Shown piece by piece: positions 6,156-61,596 of a stretch of DNA of 64,000 nt (its first letter is position 1; each line of letters starts with the position of its first letter). Made by a program: the position numbers and the translations under genes. Source of the DNA: Acidobacteriaceae bacterium (GTDB lineage: Bacteria > Acidobacteriota > Terriglobia > Terriglobales > Acidobacteriaceae); contig JASHOQ010000114.1 of NCBI GenBank assembly GCA_030041045.1, forward strand, positions 124,001-188,000, given 5' to 3'. The notes below the pieces were generated by a model. It did not search any database and was not told the origin of the DNA. It saw only the letters and a list, made by a program, of their open reading frames with translations.

Positions 6156-7790
6156 ATGGCCGATCCCAACGTCATTACGCTTCCGGTTCCGCTGGCCGGC
6201 GACGAGCGCGGCCACGCCGAGGCGCTTGCGCGGCGTTATCAGGCCGAGTTCGTCGATCTCAAGAACTTCAAGATCCAGCATGAGCTGCTGCGCACGGTGC
6301 CGGTGGAGCTGATGTTCCGCTATAACTTCGTCCCCATCGAGCAGCAGGCGAACGCCCTGATCATCGCCGTCAGCGATCCTTCGCGGCTGATGGTGCTGGA
6401 CGAGATTGCCGGCCTGCTGGGCCAGCGCATCGTGGCGCACGTGGCCACGCTCTCGCAGATTACCGATCTGCTCAAGAAGACCGAGCAGTCGCAGCGCGTG
6501 CTCGATGAAGCCAGCGAAGGACTCACCTTCGACGTGGTCACCGGCGACGAGAACGCCGATGAGAACATCTCCATCGAGAAGCTCACCAGCGAAGAAGATA
6601 TCAGCCCCATCATCCGCCTGGTGGACACCACCATTTTCACCGCGCTCGAGCGCCGCGCCTCCGACATCCACATCGAGACGCTGGACGACTCAGTGAATGT
6701 GAAGTACCGCATCGACGGCGTTCTGCAGCCCGCCATGGCGCCCATTGCGCGCGAGCACCACGGAACCATCCTGGGCCGCATCAAGATCATGAGCGAGCTC
6801 GACATCGCCGAGAAGCGCGTGCCCCAGGACGGCCGCTTCCGCGTCCGTTACAAGGGCCGGCTCATCGACTTCCGCGTCTCCATCATGCCCACGGTGCACG
6901 GCGAAAACGCCGTGCTGCGCGTGCTCGACAAGGAATCGATGAGCGAGAAGTTCCGCAACCTTACCCTCGACGTGGTGGGCTTTGCGGAAGAAGATCTGCG
7001 CCGCTTCCGCCGCTACATCCGCGAGCCCTACGGCATGGTGCTGGTCACCGGACCCACTGGTTCCGGCAAGACCACCACGCTTTACGCGGCGCTCAACGAG
7101 ATCAAGAGCGACGAGGACAAGATCATCACCATCGAGGATCCGGTCGAATACCAGATTCGCGGCATCACGCAGATTCCCGTGAACGAGAAGAAAGGCCTCA
7201 CCTTTGCGCGCGGCCTGCGTTCCATTCTGCGCCATGATCCGGACAAGATTCTGGTGGGCGAAATCCGCGACCAGGAGACGGCGCAGATCGCCATCAACTC
7301 TGCGCTGACCGGGCATCTTGTGTTTACCACTGTGCACGCCAACAACGTGGTCGACGTGCTGGGGCGCTTTTTGAACATGGGCGTGGAGGCGTACAACTTT
7401 GTCTCCGCGCTCAACTGCATCCTGGCGCAGCGGCTGGTGCGCACCATCTGCGACTACTGCGCGCGCACCGTGCACTATAACGAGAGCGAACTCGCGCTGA
7501 GCGGCCTCGAACCGGCCGAGTGGCGCGGCTTCGGCTTCCGCGAGGGCGCCGGCTGCATGGAGTGCGGCGGCACCGGCTACCGCGGGCGAACGGCGATCCA
7601 TGAGCTGCTCGACCTCACCGACACCATCCGCGAGATCATTCTCGCCAAGAAGCCCACCTCCGAAATCCGCAAAGAAGCGCAGAAGGAAGGCATGACGTTT
7701 CTGCGCGAGTCGGCGCTCGAACGCGTACGCCGCGGGCTGACCACGCTCAAGGAGATCAACAAAGTCACGTTTATCGAAGCGTCGCGGTAG
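6156..7790 (+). CDS. gspE: Type II secretion / pilus assembly ATPase GspE (PilB-like)
   Basis: A 544-residue cytoplasmic hexameric ATPase that powers pseudopilus assembly. An N-terminal MshEN-like domain (about 1-120) precedes the catalytic part. Motifs seen are Walker A GPTGSGKT (299-306), the Asp box around TIEDPVEYQI, Walker B ILVGEIRD (365-372), the His box TTVHANN, and a tetracysteine zinc site (C432, C435, C467, C470). The zinc site marks the GspE/PilB type rather than PilT. GGAGG lies about 10 bases before the ATG. It follows gspF by 6 bases, and the G-rich repeat region separates it from pilM. Confidence 0.97.
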   Translation: MADPNVITLPVPLAGDERGHAEALARRYQAEFVDLKNFKIQHELLRTVPVELMFRYNFVPIEQQANALIIAVSDPSRLMVLDEIAGLLGQRIVAHVATLSQITDLLKKTEQSQRVLDEASEGLTFDVVTGDENADENISIEKLTSEEDISPIIRLVDTTIFTALERRASDIHIETLDDSVNVKYRIDGVLQPAMAPIAREHHGTILGRIKIMSELDIAEKRVPQDGRFRVRYKGRLIDFRVSIMPTVHGENAVLRVLDKESMSEKFRNLTLDVVGFAEEDLRRFRRYIREPYGMVLVTGPTGSGKTTTLYAALNEIKSDEDKIITIEDPVEYQIRGITQIPVNEKKGLTFARGLRSILRHDPDKILVGEIRDQETAQIAINSALTGHLVFTTVHANNVVDVLGRFLNMGVEAYNFVSALNCILAQRLVRTICDYCARTVHYNESELALSGLEPAEWRGFGFREGAGCMECGGTGYRGRTAIHELLDLTDTIREIILAKKPTSEIRKEAQKEGMTFLRESALERVRRGLTTLKEINKVTFIEASR

Positions 7791-50143: not shown

Positions 50144-51001
50144 TCAGAGCTCGCCCCAGCTCAATTTGCTGCGCAAGGCCTCAAAGAATCCGCTCTCGCT
50201 GAGGCGGACGAGTTTGACGGTGTGCGTGGAGCGATGGCAGCGCACCTCGTCGCCTTTGAGCAGCGGGACGGCCTGCTGTCCGTCGACGGTGAGCAGAGCC
50301 AGCTCCGGCACGCCTTCAATGCGGATGGTCAGATGGGCGTCGCCGCGCACCACGATAGGCCGCAGCGTGAGCAGGTGCGGGCAGATGGGCGTAACCACCA
50401 GCGCATCGACATCCGGAGTGAGAATGGGGCCGTTGGCGGCGAGCGTATAAGCGGTCGAGCCGGTGGGCGTGGAGGCGATGACGCCGTCGGCGCGGAAACG
50501 GGCCACATTTTTCCCGTCGAGCTCCACGGCAAACTCGCCCATGCGCGCGATATCACCCTTGGAGACGACGATCTCATTCAGCGCCGTGTAGCACGAATGC
50601 TCGGCGCCGGCGCGCCAGAGCGCGGCGTCGAGCATGGCGCGCTCATCGACGCTGTGGCAACCATCGCACCAGCTCTCGAGCGTGGAGTAGAGATCGGTGA
50701 GCTTCACTTCCGTAAGAAAGCCGAGAAAGCCGAGGTTGACGCTGAGAATGGGCGTGCCCAGCGCGGCGAAAATGCGCGCTACCGAGAGCAAGGTGCCATT
50801 GCCGCCGAGCACGATGACCAGCGCAGGCGCGTGGCGGGGGAGATCGGCGCGAGGAACAGAGGGAGCGGTCTGCGCATATTCGCCGCCCTCGTGATCGAGC
50901 AACGGCTCGTAGTTGTGCCGGCGCAGCCAATCGACAAGCTCGGGGACGATGCGCGCGAGCTCTTCCCTGTGCGGCTTGCAGGCGATGGCGACGCGGGTCA
51001 T
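50144..51001 (-). CDS. nadK: NAD kinase with altered GGDGT motif
   Basis: A 285-residue ATP-NAD kinase that should make NADP. Family motifs are LSVNLGFLGFLTEV, ALNEIVVSKGD, FRADGVIASTPTGSTAY and VVTPICPHLLTLRPIV. The glycine-rich motif reads VLGGNGTLL: the Asp of GGDGT, which acts in catalysis, is Asn68 here (codon AAT). The rest is well conserved and length is normal, so the gene is not decaying. The upstream tlyA gene is 118 bases away on the same strand. A ribosome site is not evident before the ATG at 51001. Confidence 0.93.
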   Translation of the reverse strand: MTRVAIACKPHREELARIVPELVDWLRRHNYEPLLDHEGGEYAQTAPSVPRADLPRHAPALVIVLGGNGTLLSVARIFAALGTPILSVNLGFLGFLTEVKLTDLYSTLESWCDGCHSVDERAMLDAALWRAGAEHSCYTALNEIVVSKGDIARMGEFAVELDGKNVARFRADGVIASTPTGSTAYTLAANGPILTPDVDALVVTPICPHLLTLRPIVVRGDAHLTIRIEGVPELALLTVDGQQAVPLLKGDEVRCHRSTHTVKLVRLSESGFFEALRSKLSWGEL

Positions 51002-51119: not shown

Positions 51120-51905
51120 CTAGCCCCGCTTTGCATAGAGGAGAAACTCCTGGTTGCCTTCAGCGCCGGTGATGGGGGAGGGGATGGTTCCGACGACCTC
51201 CCATTCGAGGGAACGAAGGCAATCGGCGACGCGTGCGACGGCGAGCGCGTGCGCCTCCGGTGCGCGGACGATGCCGCCCTTGCCGACGTGCTCGCGGCCG
51301 GCCTCGAACTGGGGCTTGACCAGGATGACGGCTTCGCGCAGTGAAGGCGCGGCGGCGAACACGGCGGGGAGGATGAGCGTGGCGGAGATAAACGAGACAT
51401 CGACTACGAGCAAAGTTGGGGCTGGGAGCGCTTTTTCCTGGCCTTCTCCAGACGCGGCCAGCGACCCGGGCTCGAGAAAGCGCGCATTGGTGCGCTCGAG
51501 CAGCGTGACCCGCGGATCATTGCGCAGCTTCATGGCGATCTGGCCGAAGCCGGTGTCGACGGCGGTGACGTGCGCGGCGCCGTGCTGCAGGAGGCAATCG
51601 GTAAAGCCGCCCGTCGACGCGCCCACGTCGACGCAGGCGCGGGACTCGAGGGCAATCTCCCAGTGATCGAGCGCTGCGGCCAGTTTCAAGCCGCCGCGGC
51701 TCACGTAGGGCTGGTCTTGGCCGAGAAGACGAATCTCGGCGTCGGCGGCGACCGATGTGCCGGGCTTCTCGATTTTCTGCTCATTCTTCTTTTCGCGCTT
51801 CTGTTCGCTGACCAGCACGCGCCCGGCAAGGATCAACGCGCGCGCCCGCTCGCGGCTGGACGCAAGGCCGCGCTCGACCAGAAGAAGATCGAGACGTGTT
51901 TTCAT
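51120..51905 (-). CDS. tlyA: TlyA-family rRNA 2'-O-methyltransferase
   Basis: A 261-residue protein with an N-terminal S4 RNA-binding domain (RLDLLLVERGLASSRERAR) and a FtsJ-like methyltransferase: YVSRGGLKLAAALDHW, SAM site CVDVGASTGGFTDCLL (91-106), VVDVSFISATL and LVKPQFEAGRE. TlyA methylates the 2'-OH of cytidines in 16S and 23S rRNA and sensitises cells to capreomycin in mycobacteria. A linker (about 34-52, Lys/Glu-rich) is longer than usual. I use ATG 51905, 16 bases after the stop of the lipoprotein gene; the longer frame to 51953 overlaps that gene. Confidence 0.93.
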   Translation of the reverse strand: MKTRLDLLLVERGLASSRERARALILAGRVLVSEQKREKKNEQKIEKPGTSVAADAEIRLLGQDQPYVSRGGLKLAAALDHWEIALESRACVDVGASTGGFTDCLLQHGAAHVTAVDTGFGQIAMKLRNDPRVTLLERTNARFLEPGSLAASGEGQEKALPAPTLLVVDVSFISATLILPAVFAAAPSLREAVILVKPQFEAGREHVGKGGIVRAPEAHALAVARVADCLRSLEWEVVGTIPSPITGAEGNQEFLLYAKRG

Positions 51906-51921
51906 GGGAGGTTGCGAGCGG

Positions 51922-53544
51922 TTACGGGACGGCTTGCAGCTCGCAGTCGGCAAGCGTGGACGGGGTGAGAACCGACGGGGGCAGATTGCAGGGCTGGCCG
52001 TAACCGGGGATGCGGCTGGTGTAATCGCTGTTGCTGCTGCCTGAGCCGTTTTCGGTAGTTACGCGCGCATCGATGAGGTTGCCCTCGACGAGAATGGTGG
52101 TATCGACCTGGTCGGTGGTGGTCGGGGTCGACTCGATCACGGTGAGTTCCGGGCTGTTGGGCGCCACGGCATAGACCTTGCTGAACTCGGAGTTCTGGGT
52201 GGAGACCACGGTGCGCGGGAAGCCGACAACGGGCAGAGTTTTCTCAAGCGTGTGCGTGGATAGATTCACGACGGAAACCGTGCCGTCGGGCGAGGCCGTG
52301 CAATTAGGCGAGCAATCACCCTGGTTGGCGGTATAGGCTTTGCTGCCGTCGTAGAGGACGGTGACGCCGGCCGGCTCGGGAGTGGCAGTATTTCCGACGG
52401 GGATGGTATACGTGGTGCCGAAGGTGGGGCTGTCGTTGCCGTACTCGTCCAGGCTCACGTCGATCACGCTGATGGTACCGCCATCGTAGTTCGCCACCAC
52501 GAGCTGCTGCGTGGCCGCATTGTAGACGGCATCCACGGGACCGGCAATGGTGGTCATGCCCGCGGTGCCGTTGGGCGGCGTGACGCCGGTGGCCGTGACC
52601 GCCGAGAGCGAGAGGGGAAGAATGGGATGGTTGAAGTAGGTCTGCCCGTTCTGGTTGGTGCAGCCCGTCGGCGGCGGGCAGCCGATATCGAGCGTGTTGT
52701 TCTGGCTGTTGATGACGGAAACGGTATCGCTGCCGCGGTTGAGAACGTAGAAGCGCTTCAGATCGGTCGATTGCACGGCGAAGACCGGGCACACGGCGTT
52801 GAGGGTTCCGCTCGCGGCCGTGGGATCGAGCACGATAGGCGCATCGGCCACATCGCTGGCGATCTCAATACCCGTGGCCACACCATTCACGCCCGCCGTT
52901 GTGGGCGCAAGAGTGCAGGTCATGTTGTCGGTGTCAGGAATGTTCTGGCTGAGGACGTATTCGCGCAATCCGGTAAGCGTGGGAGGTCCGAAGACCGATA
53001 CCGGCATGGCTGCAGGAGAGGATGCGGTTCCCACGGGGACGGAAAGCTTGAGAACTTCAGGGAAACCGGAGAAGACATCGGCCACGTCGCCGTTGAGGTC
53101 GGCGGCGAACAACCCTGACGAGGGCGCCATCATGTTCACCGGCTGTGCCGTAAAAGGAAGCGTGGACTGGAGAACGAGTTTGGCCTGCAGCGTGGTGCTG
53201 ATGGGAAAGTTGGTGAGCGTGCCGTCGCTATTGATGGTGTAACCGTACGCGCCCACCTCGTCGATAGTGAAGGCGAGGGGACCGGGGCCGATGACCGCTG
53301 CGGCCATGATGGTGTCACCGGAGTAATCGATGATGGTAGCGACGCCGGGAGTGGATGGTCCAGTGGACGAGACCGCAACGACGTACGATGTGGGCTGCGC
53401 TGCAGGTCCGCTGGGAACGATGGGCGTGACGACGGGCCGATAATTATTGCCGCACCCCGCAAGCATGGCTGTAACCGCGAGAGCCGCGCCAACCTCAACC
53501 AAAAGCGCGCGCCTCTGGCCTGAAATCATGGGAAAAAGCCTCAT
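51922..53544 (-). CDS. YncE-like beta-propeller lipoprotein
   Basis: A 540-residue exported lipoprotein with signal and lipobox LAGC (Cys near 31). It contains repeated propeller blades, seen as FYVLNRGSDTVSVINSQNN, LVVANYDGGTISVIDVS, KAYTANQGDCSPNCTASPDG and TVSVVNLSTHTLEKTLPV. Several Cys pairs suggest disulfides. Such propellers bind other proteins, glycans or surface layers; the function is unknown. ATG 53544 follows AGGAAAG. It lies 16 bases upstream of tlyA in an unlikely functional operon. Confidence 0.85.
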   Translation of the reverse strand: MRLFPMISGQRRALLVEVGAALAVTAMLAGCGNNYRPVVTPIVPSGPAAQPTSYVVAVSSTGPSTPGVATIIDYSGDTIMAAAVIGPGPLAFTIDEVGAYGYTINSDGTLTNFPISTTLQAKLVLQSTLPFTAQPVNMMAPSSGLFAADLNGDVADVFSGFPEVLKLSVPVGTASSPAAMPVSVFGPPTLTGLREYVLSQNIPDTDNMTCTLAPTTAGVNGVATGIEIASDVADAPIVLDPTAASGTLNAVCPVFAVQSTDLKRFYVLNRGSDTVSVINSQNNTLDIGCPPPTGCTNQNGQTYFNHPILPLSLSAVTATGVTPPNGTAGMTTIAGPVDAVYNAATQQLVVANYDGGTISVIDVSLDEYGNDSPTFGTTYTIPVGNTATPEPAGVTVLYDGSKAYTANQGDCSPNCTASPDGTVSVVNLSTHTLEKTLPVVGFPRTVVSTQNSEFSKVYAVAPNSPELTVIESTPTTTDQVDTTILVEGNLIDARVTTENGSGSSNSDYTSRIPGYGQPCNLPPSVLTPSTLADCELQAVP

Positions 53545-59293: not shown

Positions 59294-60250
59294 ATGGGTT
59301 TTGGTCCGATGCCTGTTCGTATTGTACAGAGCAAACAGAACGCGCGGGTGAAGGAGCTGCGGAAGGCGCTTGCGCAGCCGGGCCGAGGCGCGCACGGGCA
59401 CGTGGGCATTGAAGGGTCGAAGATGGTCGAAGAGGCGCTGCGTGCCGGGTTGCAGGTGAAGACTGTATTCGTGGCCCAGGGGTGGGAGCGGTTGGTGGGG
59501 GCCATGCGCCTGCCGGCCACGACGGAGATTCTGCGGCTTCCGCACGCGATTCTCAGCGCCGCGCTCGCCACGGAGACGCCGCAGGCGGTGGCGGCGCTGG
59601 TTGAGCCACCGGCGTGGAGTTGGGAGAGCCTGTTGAGGGTGCGACACGGTTGCGCGCCGCTGGTTCTGGTGCTTGCGGGCTTGCAGGATCCGGGAAACCT
59701 GGGAACCATTCTGCGTTCGGCCGAGGCGTTTGGCGCGAGCGGTGTGGTGAGCCTGCCGGGAACTGTGAGCGCGTGGAATGCGAAGGCGGTGAGGGCTTCG
59801 GCGGGGAGCGTGTTTCGCGTGCCGGTGCTGCCAGCGAGCGCGGATGAGTGCTTTGCGCGGCTGCGCGAGGCGGGCGTGAAGATCCGGACGACGGCGGCAG
59901 AAGGGGCGGCGCGCAGCGCCGAGGCGGCAGATCGCGCGGACCTCACGGCGCCGGTTGCGCTGCTGATCGGCAATGAAGGCAACGGAGTTTCGGCGGAGCT
60001 TGCGGCGCGAGCGGACGGTGCGATCACGATTCCCTGCCCCGGCCCGGTGGAGAGCCTGAACGCGGCGGTTGCGGCGAGCGTGCTGCTGTATGAGGCGTCA
60101 CGGCAGCGGGGTTTTTCGGTTTCCCACCCATTCTCCGCCGCCGCAGGCGGCGCTGGAGAATGGATGGGGCACGGGGAGAGGATGGGGCACGGGGAGTCGA
60201 TTGGGCAGGGAAAGTCCGCGGCAAAGAAGACTGCGAGGAGAGCGCGATGA
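59294..60250 (+). CDS. SpoU/TrmH-family RNA 2'-O-methyltransferase with repeat-derived tail
   Basis: A 318-residue protein. An N-terminal substrate-binding part (KQNARVKELRKALAQPGRG, then GSKMVEEAL) precedes a SPOUT domain with LAGLQDPGNLGTILRSAEAF (motif 1), LLIGNEGNGVS (motif 2) and IPCPGPVESLNAAVAASVLL (motif 3). It should methylate rRNA or tRNA ribose. The last 45 residues (SHPFSAAAGGAGEWMGHGER onward) are low complexity and are encoded by a palindromic repeat. ATG 59294 or 59309; the latter fits the family start better. Its stop overlaps the rarA ATG (ATGA). Confidence 0.9.
   Translation: MGFGPMPVRIVQSKQNARVKELRKALAQPGRGAHGHVGIEGSKMVEEALRAGLQVKTVFVAQGWERLVGAMRLPATTEILRLPHAILSAALATETPQAVAALVEPPAWSWESLLRVRHGCAPLVLVLAGLQDPGNLGTILRSAEAFGASGVVSLPGTVSAWNAKAVRASAGSVFRVPVLPASADECFARLREAGVKIRTTAAEGAARSAEAADRADLTAPVALLIGNEGNGVSAELAARADGAITIPCPGPVESLNAAVAASVLLYEASRQRGFSVSHPFSAAAGGAGEWMGHGERMGHGESIGQGKSAAKKTARRAR
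60123..60169. repeat. Palindromic repeat inside the trmH-like coding end
   Basis: The sequence cccacccattctccgccgcc ... ggagaatggatgggg is the same type as the intergenic palindrome at 41825-41864. It is read in frame as part of the C-terminal tail, and two further gaggatggggcacgg copies follow it. Confidence 0.8.
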
Positions 60251-61596
60251 GCTTATTCGAGCAGATGCCTGCGCAGCCGCCGCGTGGCGTGAAGAGCACG
60301 CGCGCCGGCGGCGCGCCGCTCGCCGAACGGATGCGGCCGCGCAGCCTGGACGAACTCGTCGGCCAGGAGCATCTGGTGGGACCGGGCAAGCCGCTGCGCG
60401 TGCAGATCGAGCGCGATGACGCGAGCTCGATGATCTTCTGGGGTCCGCCGGGGGTGGGCAAGACCACGCTGGCGAAGATCATTGCCGAGACCACGCAGGC
60501 GAGCTTCATCGAGTTCTCCGCGGTGATGAGCGGCATCAAGGAGATCAAGCAGGTGATGGTGGATGCGGCCAAGGCCGCGGAACTGCGCTCGCGGACGATT
60601 CTCTTTGTGGACGAGATTCACCGCTTCAACAAGGCGCAGCAGGATGCGTTTCTGCCCTACGTGGAGCGGGGCACGATAAGGCTGATTGGCGCGACCACCG
60701 AGAATCCGTCGTTCGAAGTGATCTCCGCGCTGCTCTCGCGCTGCCGCGTGTATGTGCTGGAGCCGCTCAAGGACGAGCAGATTGCACTGCTGCTCCGGCG
60801 CGCGCTGGAGGACCGCGAGCGCGGCCTGGGTGCACAGGAGCTCCAGGCCGATGACGATGCCTTGGAATTGATCGCGGGCTACGCAAGCGGCGATTGCCGC
60901 ACGGCCTACAACGCGCTTGAAGTGGCGGCGCAACTGGCGACGGCCGATGAAAGCAAGCACATCGCCAAGGCCATCGCAGCCGAAGCGATCCAGCGGCGCG
61001 TGCTGATGTACGACAAGCAGGGCGAGGAGCACTTCAACCTGATCAGCGCGCTACACAAGAGCGTGCGCAACTCCGATGCGGACGCGGCGCTCTATTGGCT
61101 GGGGCGGATGCTGGCCGCAGGCGAGGATCCGCTGTATCTGGCGCGGCGCATCGTGCGCATGGCCGTCGAAGACATCGGTTTGGCTGCGCCGGAAGCTCTG
61201 CATCTGTGCCTGGCGGCGAAAGAGACGTACGATTTTCTGGGCTCGCCGGAGGGCGAGCTGGCGCTGGCGGAAGCGGTGGTTTATCTCGCGTTGGCGCCGA
61301 AGTCGAACGCAGTGTACACCGCGTACGGCGCGGCGCAGGAGGACATCGAGCGCACGCGCCAGGAGCCGGTGCCGCTGCACCTGCGCAACGCGCCGACGAA
61401 GCTGATGAAGGAGCTGGGCTACGCTGCCGGTTACAAGTATGCGCACGACGAAGAGGGGAAGGTTTCCGATATGGATTGCCTGCCGGATTCGCTCAAGGGG
61501 CGCAGCTATTACGTGCCCACGCAGGAGGGACGGGAAAAGCAGTTGGCGGCGCGGATGGAGGAGATCAGGCGAATCAAAGCTGCAAAACGCGGGTAA
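60247..61596 (+). CDS. rarA: Replication-associated recombination protein A (RarA/MgsA)
   Basis: A 449-residue AAA+ ATPase of the clamp-loader type that acts at stalled replication forks. Motifs: ERMRPRSLDELVGQEHLVG, Walker A GPPGVGKT (66-73), Walker B LFVDEIHRFNKAQQD, sensor 1 GATTENPSFE, and the MgsA C-terminal region (ISALHKSVRNSDADAALYWL). Length is normal. It is translationally coupled to the methyltransferase gene. Confidence 0.96.
   Translation: MSLFEQMPAQPPRGVKSTRAGGAPLAERMRPRSLDELVGQEHLVGPGKPLRVQIERDDASSMIFWGPPGVGKTTLAKIIAETTQASFIEFSAVMSGIKEIKQVMVDAAKAAELRSRTILFVDEIHRFNKAQQDAFLPYVERGTIRLIGATTENPSFEVISALLSRCRVYVLEPLKDEQIALLLRRALEDRERGLGAQELQADDDALELIAGYASGDCRTAYNALEVAAQLATADESKHIAKAIAAEAIQRRVLMYDKQGEEHFNLISALHKSVRNSDADAALYWLGRMLAAGEDPLYLARRIVRMAVEDIGLAAPEALHLCLAAKETYDFLGSPEGELALAEAVVYLALAPKSNAVYTAYGAAQEDIERTRQEPVPLHLRNAPTKLMKELGYAAGYKYAHDEEGKVSDMDCLPDSLKGRSYYVPTQEGREKQLAARMEEIRRIKAAKRG

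Follow-up and report, generated by a model that had tools for sequence, protein, structure and literature searches.

The window analysed here, a stretch of 64,000 nucleotides from a contig of an Acidobacteriaceae bacterium, carries on its minus strand, at 50144-51001, an open and intact reading frame for an NAD kinase homologue of 285 amino acids counted from the ATG, whose sequence includes LVIVLGGNGTLLSVARIF. Adjoining this nadK gene upstream, on the same strand, is a gene for an FtsJ-like methyltransferase (51120-51953; PF01728, 136.3 bits), which we take to be of the TlyA type and which serves here as context only.

An NAD kinase homologue with GGNGT in place of GGDGT

The two Pfam domains of NAD kinases are both recognised in the protein above their curated cut-offs, PF01513 with 59.7 bits (cut-off 25.5) and PF20143 with 121.8 bits (cut-off 23.7), and its best sequence matches in the PDB are the NAD kinases 4hao (E 1.6e-46), 7mh7 and 7qvs. 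The NE short motif, as defined in the available part of PMC8553519, is intact at residues 140-146 (ALNEIVV, with Asn142 and Glu143; 50564-50584, minus strand). Alignment shows that conserved region II is intact as well (50441-50494, minus strand), running from RADGV (residues 170-174) to ASTPTGSTAYTL (residues 176-187) with its RADG...STPTGSTAY pattern complete; Asp172, Gly173, Thr178 to Thr183 and Tyr185 are invariant across an alignment of six proteins. The GGDG motif, with its catalytic Asp, is the exception: residues 66-70 read GGNGT (50792-50806, minus strand), the third of them being Asn68, encoded by AAT (50798-50800; ATT on the plus strand). A sequence-only reading of this DNA had placed GGNGT with an AAT codon for Asn68 within 50780-50815, and in this it was exact. 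With E. coli NadK, M. tuberculosis Ppnk and L. monocytogenes NADK1 the window protein shares PF01513 and PF20143, the NE motif, region II and NxGxLGF, whereas the Asp of their GGDG is Asn in the window protein.

Eighteen NCBIfam NAD kinase models match the window protein, none above its cut-off (best 229 bits, against 316). Two Asp-bearing proteins of the same genus also stay below these cut-offs, with best scores of 220 (a partial protein) and 245.5 bits against 316, so that the shortfall is a trait of the group and not of the Asn. Given GGNG at the Asp column, we place the window protein among the homologues of NAD kinase on grounds of descent, with putative activity.

What is known of this Asp gives the substitution its weight. 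Asp-85 of M. tuberculosis Ppnk is described as vital for activity, and Asp-45 of Listeria NADK1 as taking the proton from the 2'-hydroxyl of NAD, in the available part of PMC8553519; the activation of the 2'-hydroxyl that the sequence-only reading had attributed to the Asp agrees with both descriptions. The same part of that source reports substrate-assisted catalysis by the NAD diphosphate in LmNADK1 and, for characterised kinases, that the residue two places on from the Asp in GGDGT or GGDGN bears on the use of polyphosphate. NAD kinase is described as the one enzyme that makes NADP de novo and as essential in several bacteria (PMC4518329 and PMC9208755, each in its available part), so that loss of the Asp from a sole NAD kinase should carry a heavy cost if catalysis could not do without it. 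Chlamydia, an intracellular group, is reported to be without NAD kinase genes (PMC9208755, same part). Three explanations offer themselves: enzymes with Asn may retain enough activity to be useful, the record may be in error, or the strain may obtain NADP in a different way.

The PDB entry 2i2f, of L. monocytogenes NADK1, scored 2.3 bits above entry 2i1w with each of two Asn-bearing queries; an Asp-bearing query placed it 2.3 bits lower than 2i1w. Judged from bit scores alone, 2i2f is probably an Asp-to-Asn version of Listeria NADK1; if it is such a mutant, a protein of this kind folds. Our literature search found nothing on D45N, or on Asp45 together with NAD kinase, and GGNGT was not found in the literature among the matches listed.

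A single recognisable NAD kinase gene in the genome

The genome is a draft of 142 contigs and 5.23 Mb, listed as 99.62% complete. PF01513 and PF20143 each have one place above the cut-off in it, and both places are the gene at 50144-51001. A protein search of the genome with the kinase of the endosymbiont of Pedicinus badii (L037, described below), with E values up to 10, returned the same single place and nothing further. The second NAD kinase that the sequence-only reading had considered possible was thus found neither with the two Pfam domains nor by the protein search.

One weak additional PF01513 match, at L002:1351-2313 (22.5 bits, below the cut-off of 25.5), has GGDGT. It gives 107.3 bits with PF00781 and was ruled out as a second NAD kinase, being a protein of the diacylglycerol kinase / YegS type, a distant relative that shares GGDGT and is not an NAD kinase.

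Comparison with relatives

The protein search covered 60 genomes, the window's own and those of 59 relatives (35 of the same genus, 14 of the same order and 10 of the same class). The nadK gene was matched in 54 of the 59 relatives, and 55 loci were read from these 54 genomes, G045 having two. Asp occupies the column of Asn68 at all 55 loci. Asn as a group-wide trait is therefore ruled out, and the many Asn-bearing kin for which the sequence-only reading had allowed were not encountered; Asn is carried by four genomes of other groups. The window protein is 67-88% identical to those of its genus, the closest being that of a sister species (G029; 88% over residues 27-285). The sister codon is GAT, against AAT in the window, so that one base separates Asp from Asn.

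A column was taken as invariant when no variation was seen among the relatives represented in it (at least 45 of the 55). D68N is the sole break by the window protein among 38 otherwise invariant columns, and with 37 of the 38 kept the earlier statement that the rest of the protein is well conserved stands. By the same leave-one-out count, breaks at one or more of these columns occur in 10 of the 55 loci of relatives, among them L064 (genome G047, same order), which has Arg at the position of Asn142 of the NE motif (ALREVVV in the alignment), either through error or as another odd active site. Odd residues at catalytic columns thus do occur in these draft genomes.

Within the genus (29 relatives), the window protein breaks four of 122 invariant columns, by L19V, D68N, V176A and V226I. 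The other 29 genus proteins have a mean of 0.79 breaks, and L028 alone has more than four (6). Odd changes are slightly more frequent in this nadK than in those of its genus kin, which speaks against a wholly ordinary history of the gene. Despite these breaks, more than in 28 of the 29 kin, decay of the gene is not supported, given the low ratio of dN to dS with respect to the sister (Nei-Gojobori dN 0.075, dS 0.499). Over residues 27-285, five amino acid changes are private to the window protein and six to that of the sister. The sequence-only reading had also suggested that another residue might substitute for the Asp, a suggestion without support in the sequence: L19V, V176A and V226I, and likewise A56R and A246P, which are further private changes with respect to the sister, add no acidic residue, and no compensating one is found among the private changes.

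Some loci of the relatives are peculiar in other ways. L042 (genome G010, same genus) has its nadK split over two frames, for residues 1-89 and 96-284, by a frameshift or an assembly error. The two NAD kinase loci of G045 (same order), L053 and L060, both have Asp; the genome is listed as 82% complete, and the extra locus is either a duplicate of the gene or the product of a mixed bin. The protein search gave no nadK match in five of the 59 relatives. When these five were searched with PF01513, three were without a match and G022 had one, above the cut-off at 26.3 bits. By eye, the G022 match and one of two sub-cut-off matches in G048 have GGDGT and are like diacylglycerol kinases; no such motif was seen by eye at the second G048 place. 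These five genomes may be without nadK or may be incomplete.

GGNG kinases in other bacteria

We scanned 84,980 species genomes with a fixed-spacing DNA pattern, GGNG followed by the NxGxLGF stretch. The Asp form of the pattern catches 45 of the 55 relative loci, which makes the sensitivity of the scan good and not complete; genomes closely similar to that of the window may be absent from the scan. Six places were returned. Two (L034 and L036), not being kinases, were set aside; both Pfam domains exceed their cut-offs in the remaining four, which are NAD kinases and belong to Sodalis sp. CWE, a louse endosymbiont (L035:3521-4405), to the endosymbiont of Pedicinus badii, also a louse endosymbiont (L037:4569-5465), to a Cytophagales MAG (L038:4826-5701) and to a Chlorobiota MAG (L039:3835-4743).

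All four use AAT for the Asn, at the same place and followed by Gly, and all four keep the other motifs; in the kinase of the Chlorobiota MAG, NE/D takes its known ND form. As searched, each of these genomes holds one PF01513 place and one PF20143 place, and the PF01513 place is the same gene, letter for letter. The four proteins share the Asn with the window protein at 27-35% identity. Those of Sodalis sp. CWE and the Pedicinus badii endosymbiont, 46% identical to each other, have GGNGN, unlike the GGNGT of the window, and may go back to one shared Asn ancestor. What is new here is that Asn at this NAD kinase site recurs in other groups, rarely, in proteins of putative activity.

The firmest of the parallels is Sodalis sp. 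CWE, for which an average coverage of 90X is given for the endosymbiont contigs (available part of PMC8173840), making a base-call error there unlikely. No word in that paper begins with nadK, NADP or NAD. A genus search around Sodalis sp. CWE returned that genome alone, and in literature on Sodalis, lice and endosymbionts the term NAD kinase was not found among the matches listed. Reduced symbionts fix harmful changes, and this, together with the reported absence of the gene from Chlamydia, makes the two endosymbionts less persuasive as evidence of function than they seem at first. The two MAG parallels are open to the same doubt about error as the window record.

A possible error in the record

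It is a serious possibility, short of probable, that a base-call, assembly or consensus error hides a true GAT codon and an ordinary GGDGT NAD kinase. The change is a single transition in one genome, set against Asp at every relative locus read, and it comes with no new acidic residue to accommodate it. A scan that hunts for oddities will pick up wrong bases, and draft relatives are likewise odd at invariant columns, at 10 of the 55 loci. An assembly that is still in 142 contigs can be expected to contain a few wrong bases.

Two genes on the same contig, one for a RarA/MgsA-type ATPase (60160-61596) and the other for a T2SSE/PilB-type ATPase (6156-7790), were used as controls, each compared with its best-matching 29 relatives, and they weigh against an error. 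Their proteins in the window break none of 173 and none of 312 invariant columns respectively (0 at 485 in total); the relatives average 1.2 breaks, a figure that some distant ones push upwards. The assembly is consequently not generally poor, although a single base is not cleared thereby, and a generally noisy assembly is not supported. Against an error stand also the open and intact nadK frame and the Asn of the four other genomes, which is above what we would expect from error alone, by a rough judgement.

Less likely readings: an inactive enzyme or a selected change

That the substitution is real and inactivating seems improbable to us. The kinase would then be dead, and NADP would come from an unrecognised enzyme or by uptake, or the sample would derive from a sick or mixed population. 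The vital role of the Asp in Ppnk (PMC8553519, in the part available) and the absence of NAD kinase genes reported for Chlamydia (PMC9208755, likewise) would agree with such a loss, as would the four broken genus-invariant columns. However, no second NAD kinase was found in the genome, dN/dS with respect to the sister is low, and a genome of 5.2 Mb would be unlike that of a host-dependent organism. A change selected because it alters the use of donors (ATP versus polyphosphate) or feedback, and not the rate alone, is more doubtful still. In its favour, the second residue after the Asp of the motif bears on polyphosphate use in characterised kinases (available part of PMC8553519); against it, that position differs from Asn68 and is unchanged here as Thr70, and the substitution has one private occurrence among the kin.

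A proposed slowed but working NAD kinase

We put at about even chances the reading that this is the sole NAD kinase of the genome, with a recent GAT to AAT change, slowed yet working and making NADP; we consider a real, slowed enzyme somewhat likelier than an error in the record, low activity and sequencing error both being alternatives that the sequence-only reading had named. A recent change of one base would have exchanged the catalytic Asp for Asn in the single NAD kinase, and the other motifs, being intact, would still bind NAD and ATP, so that NADP would be made slowly and in amounts sufficient for growth. With no strong base supplied by the protein, activation of the 2'-hydroxyl would fall to the metal and ATP together with the NAD diphosphate, as in the substrate-assisted portion of the mechanism already known. 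Slow deamidation of the Asn-Gly pair possibly helps, regenerating Asp in part of the molecules.

We infer a working enzyme because 37 of the 38 columns are kept, dN is low relative to dS, the gene is the sole NAD kinase, four GGNG parallels exist and the control genes are clean. Weighing against a working enzyme is the absence of Asn from all 55 relative loci, which leaves its persistence in this lineage without support. So do the vital Asp-85 of Ppnk, the four of 122 genus-invariant columns broken and the fact that two of the parallels are reduced endosymbionts.

The part that deamidation might play follows from the motif itself. The Gly after the Asp belongs to it, and any Asp-to-Asn change here therefore makes Asn-Gly, the fastest-deamidating dipeptide, which yields Asp and isoAsp. 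With Gly following Asn68, the enzyme could slowly regain its Asp. An Asp-to-Asn haloalkane dehalogenase reportedly regained activity through deamidation; our own literature search found nothing on deamidation restoring enzyme activity. Of the five genomes, two (Cytophagales and Chlorobiota) have near-full-length matches to PCMT, the isoaspartate methyltransferase; in the window's own genome and in the two endosymbionts the matches are partial and weak, so that we claim no repair partner for the deamidation. Comparison of these sequences allows the broader and rather unlikely proposal that in several bacteria of different groups NADP is made entirely by Asp-less NAD kinases, with the Asp either dispensable or restored after translation by deamidation, which would make this a self-repairing site.

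Meaning of the substitution

The enzyme family is an ordinary one, here with a single striking residue: in the record, the catalytic position of the one NAD kinase that can be recognised has changed by one base, a substitution private among the kin read. A sole NAD kinase copy without the proposed general base raises the question of how much that base contributes, and the five natural GGNG cases, that of the window and the four others, form a small panel for assay. If the Asn of the window is an error, its recognition would usefully correct the record. Should the Asn enzymes work, either the accepted role of the Asp would have to be softened or deamidation would be part of the maturation of the enzyme.
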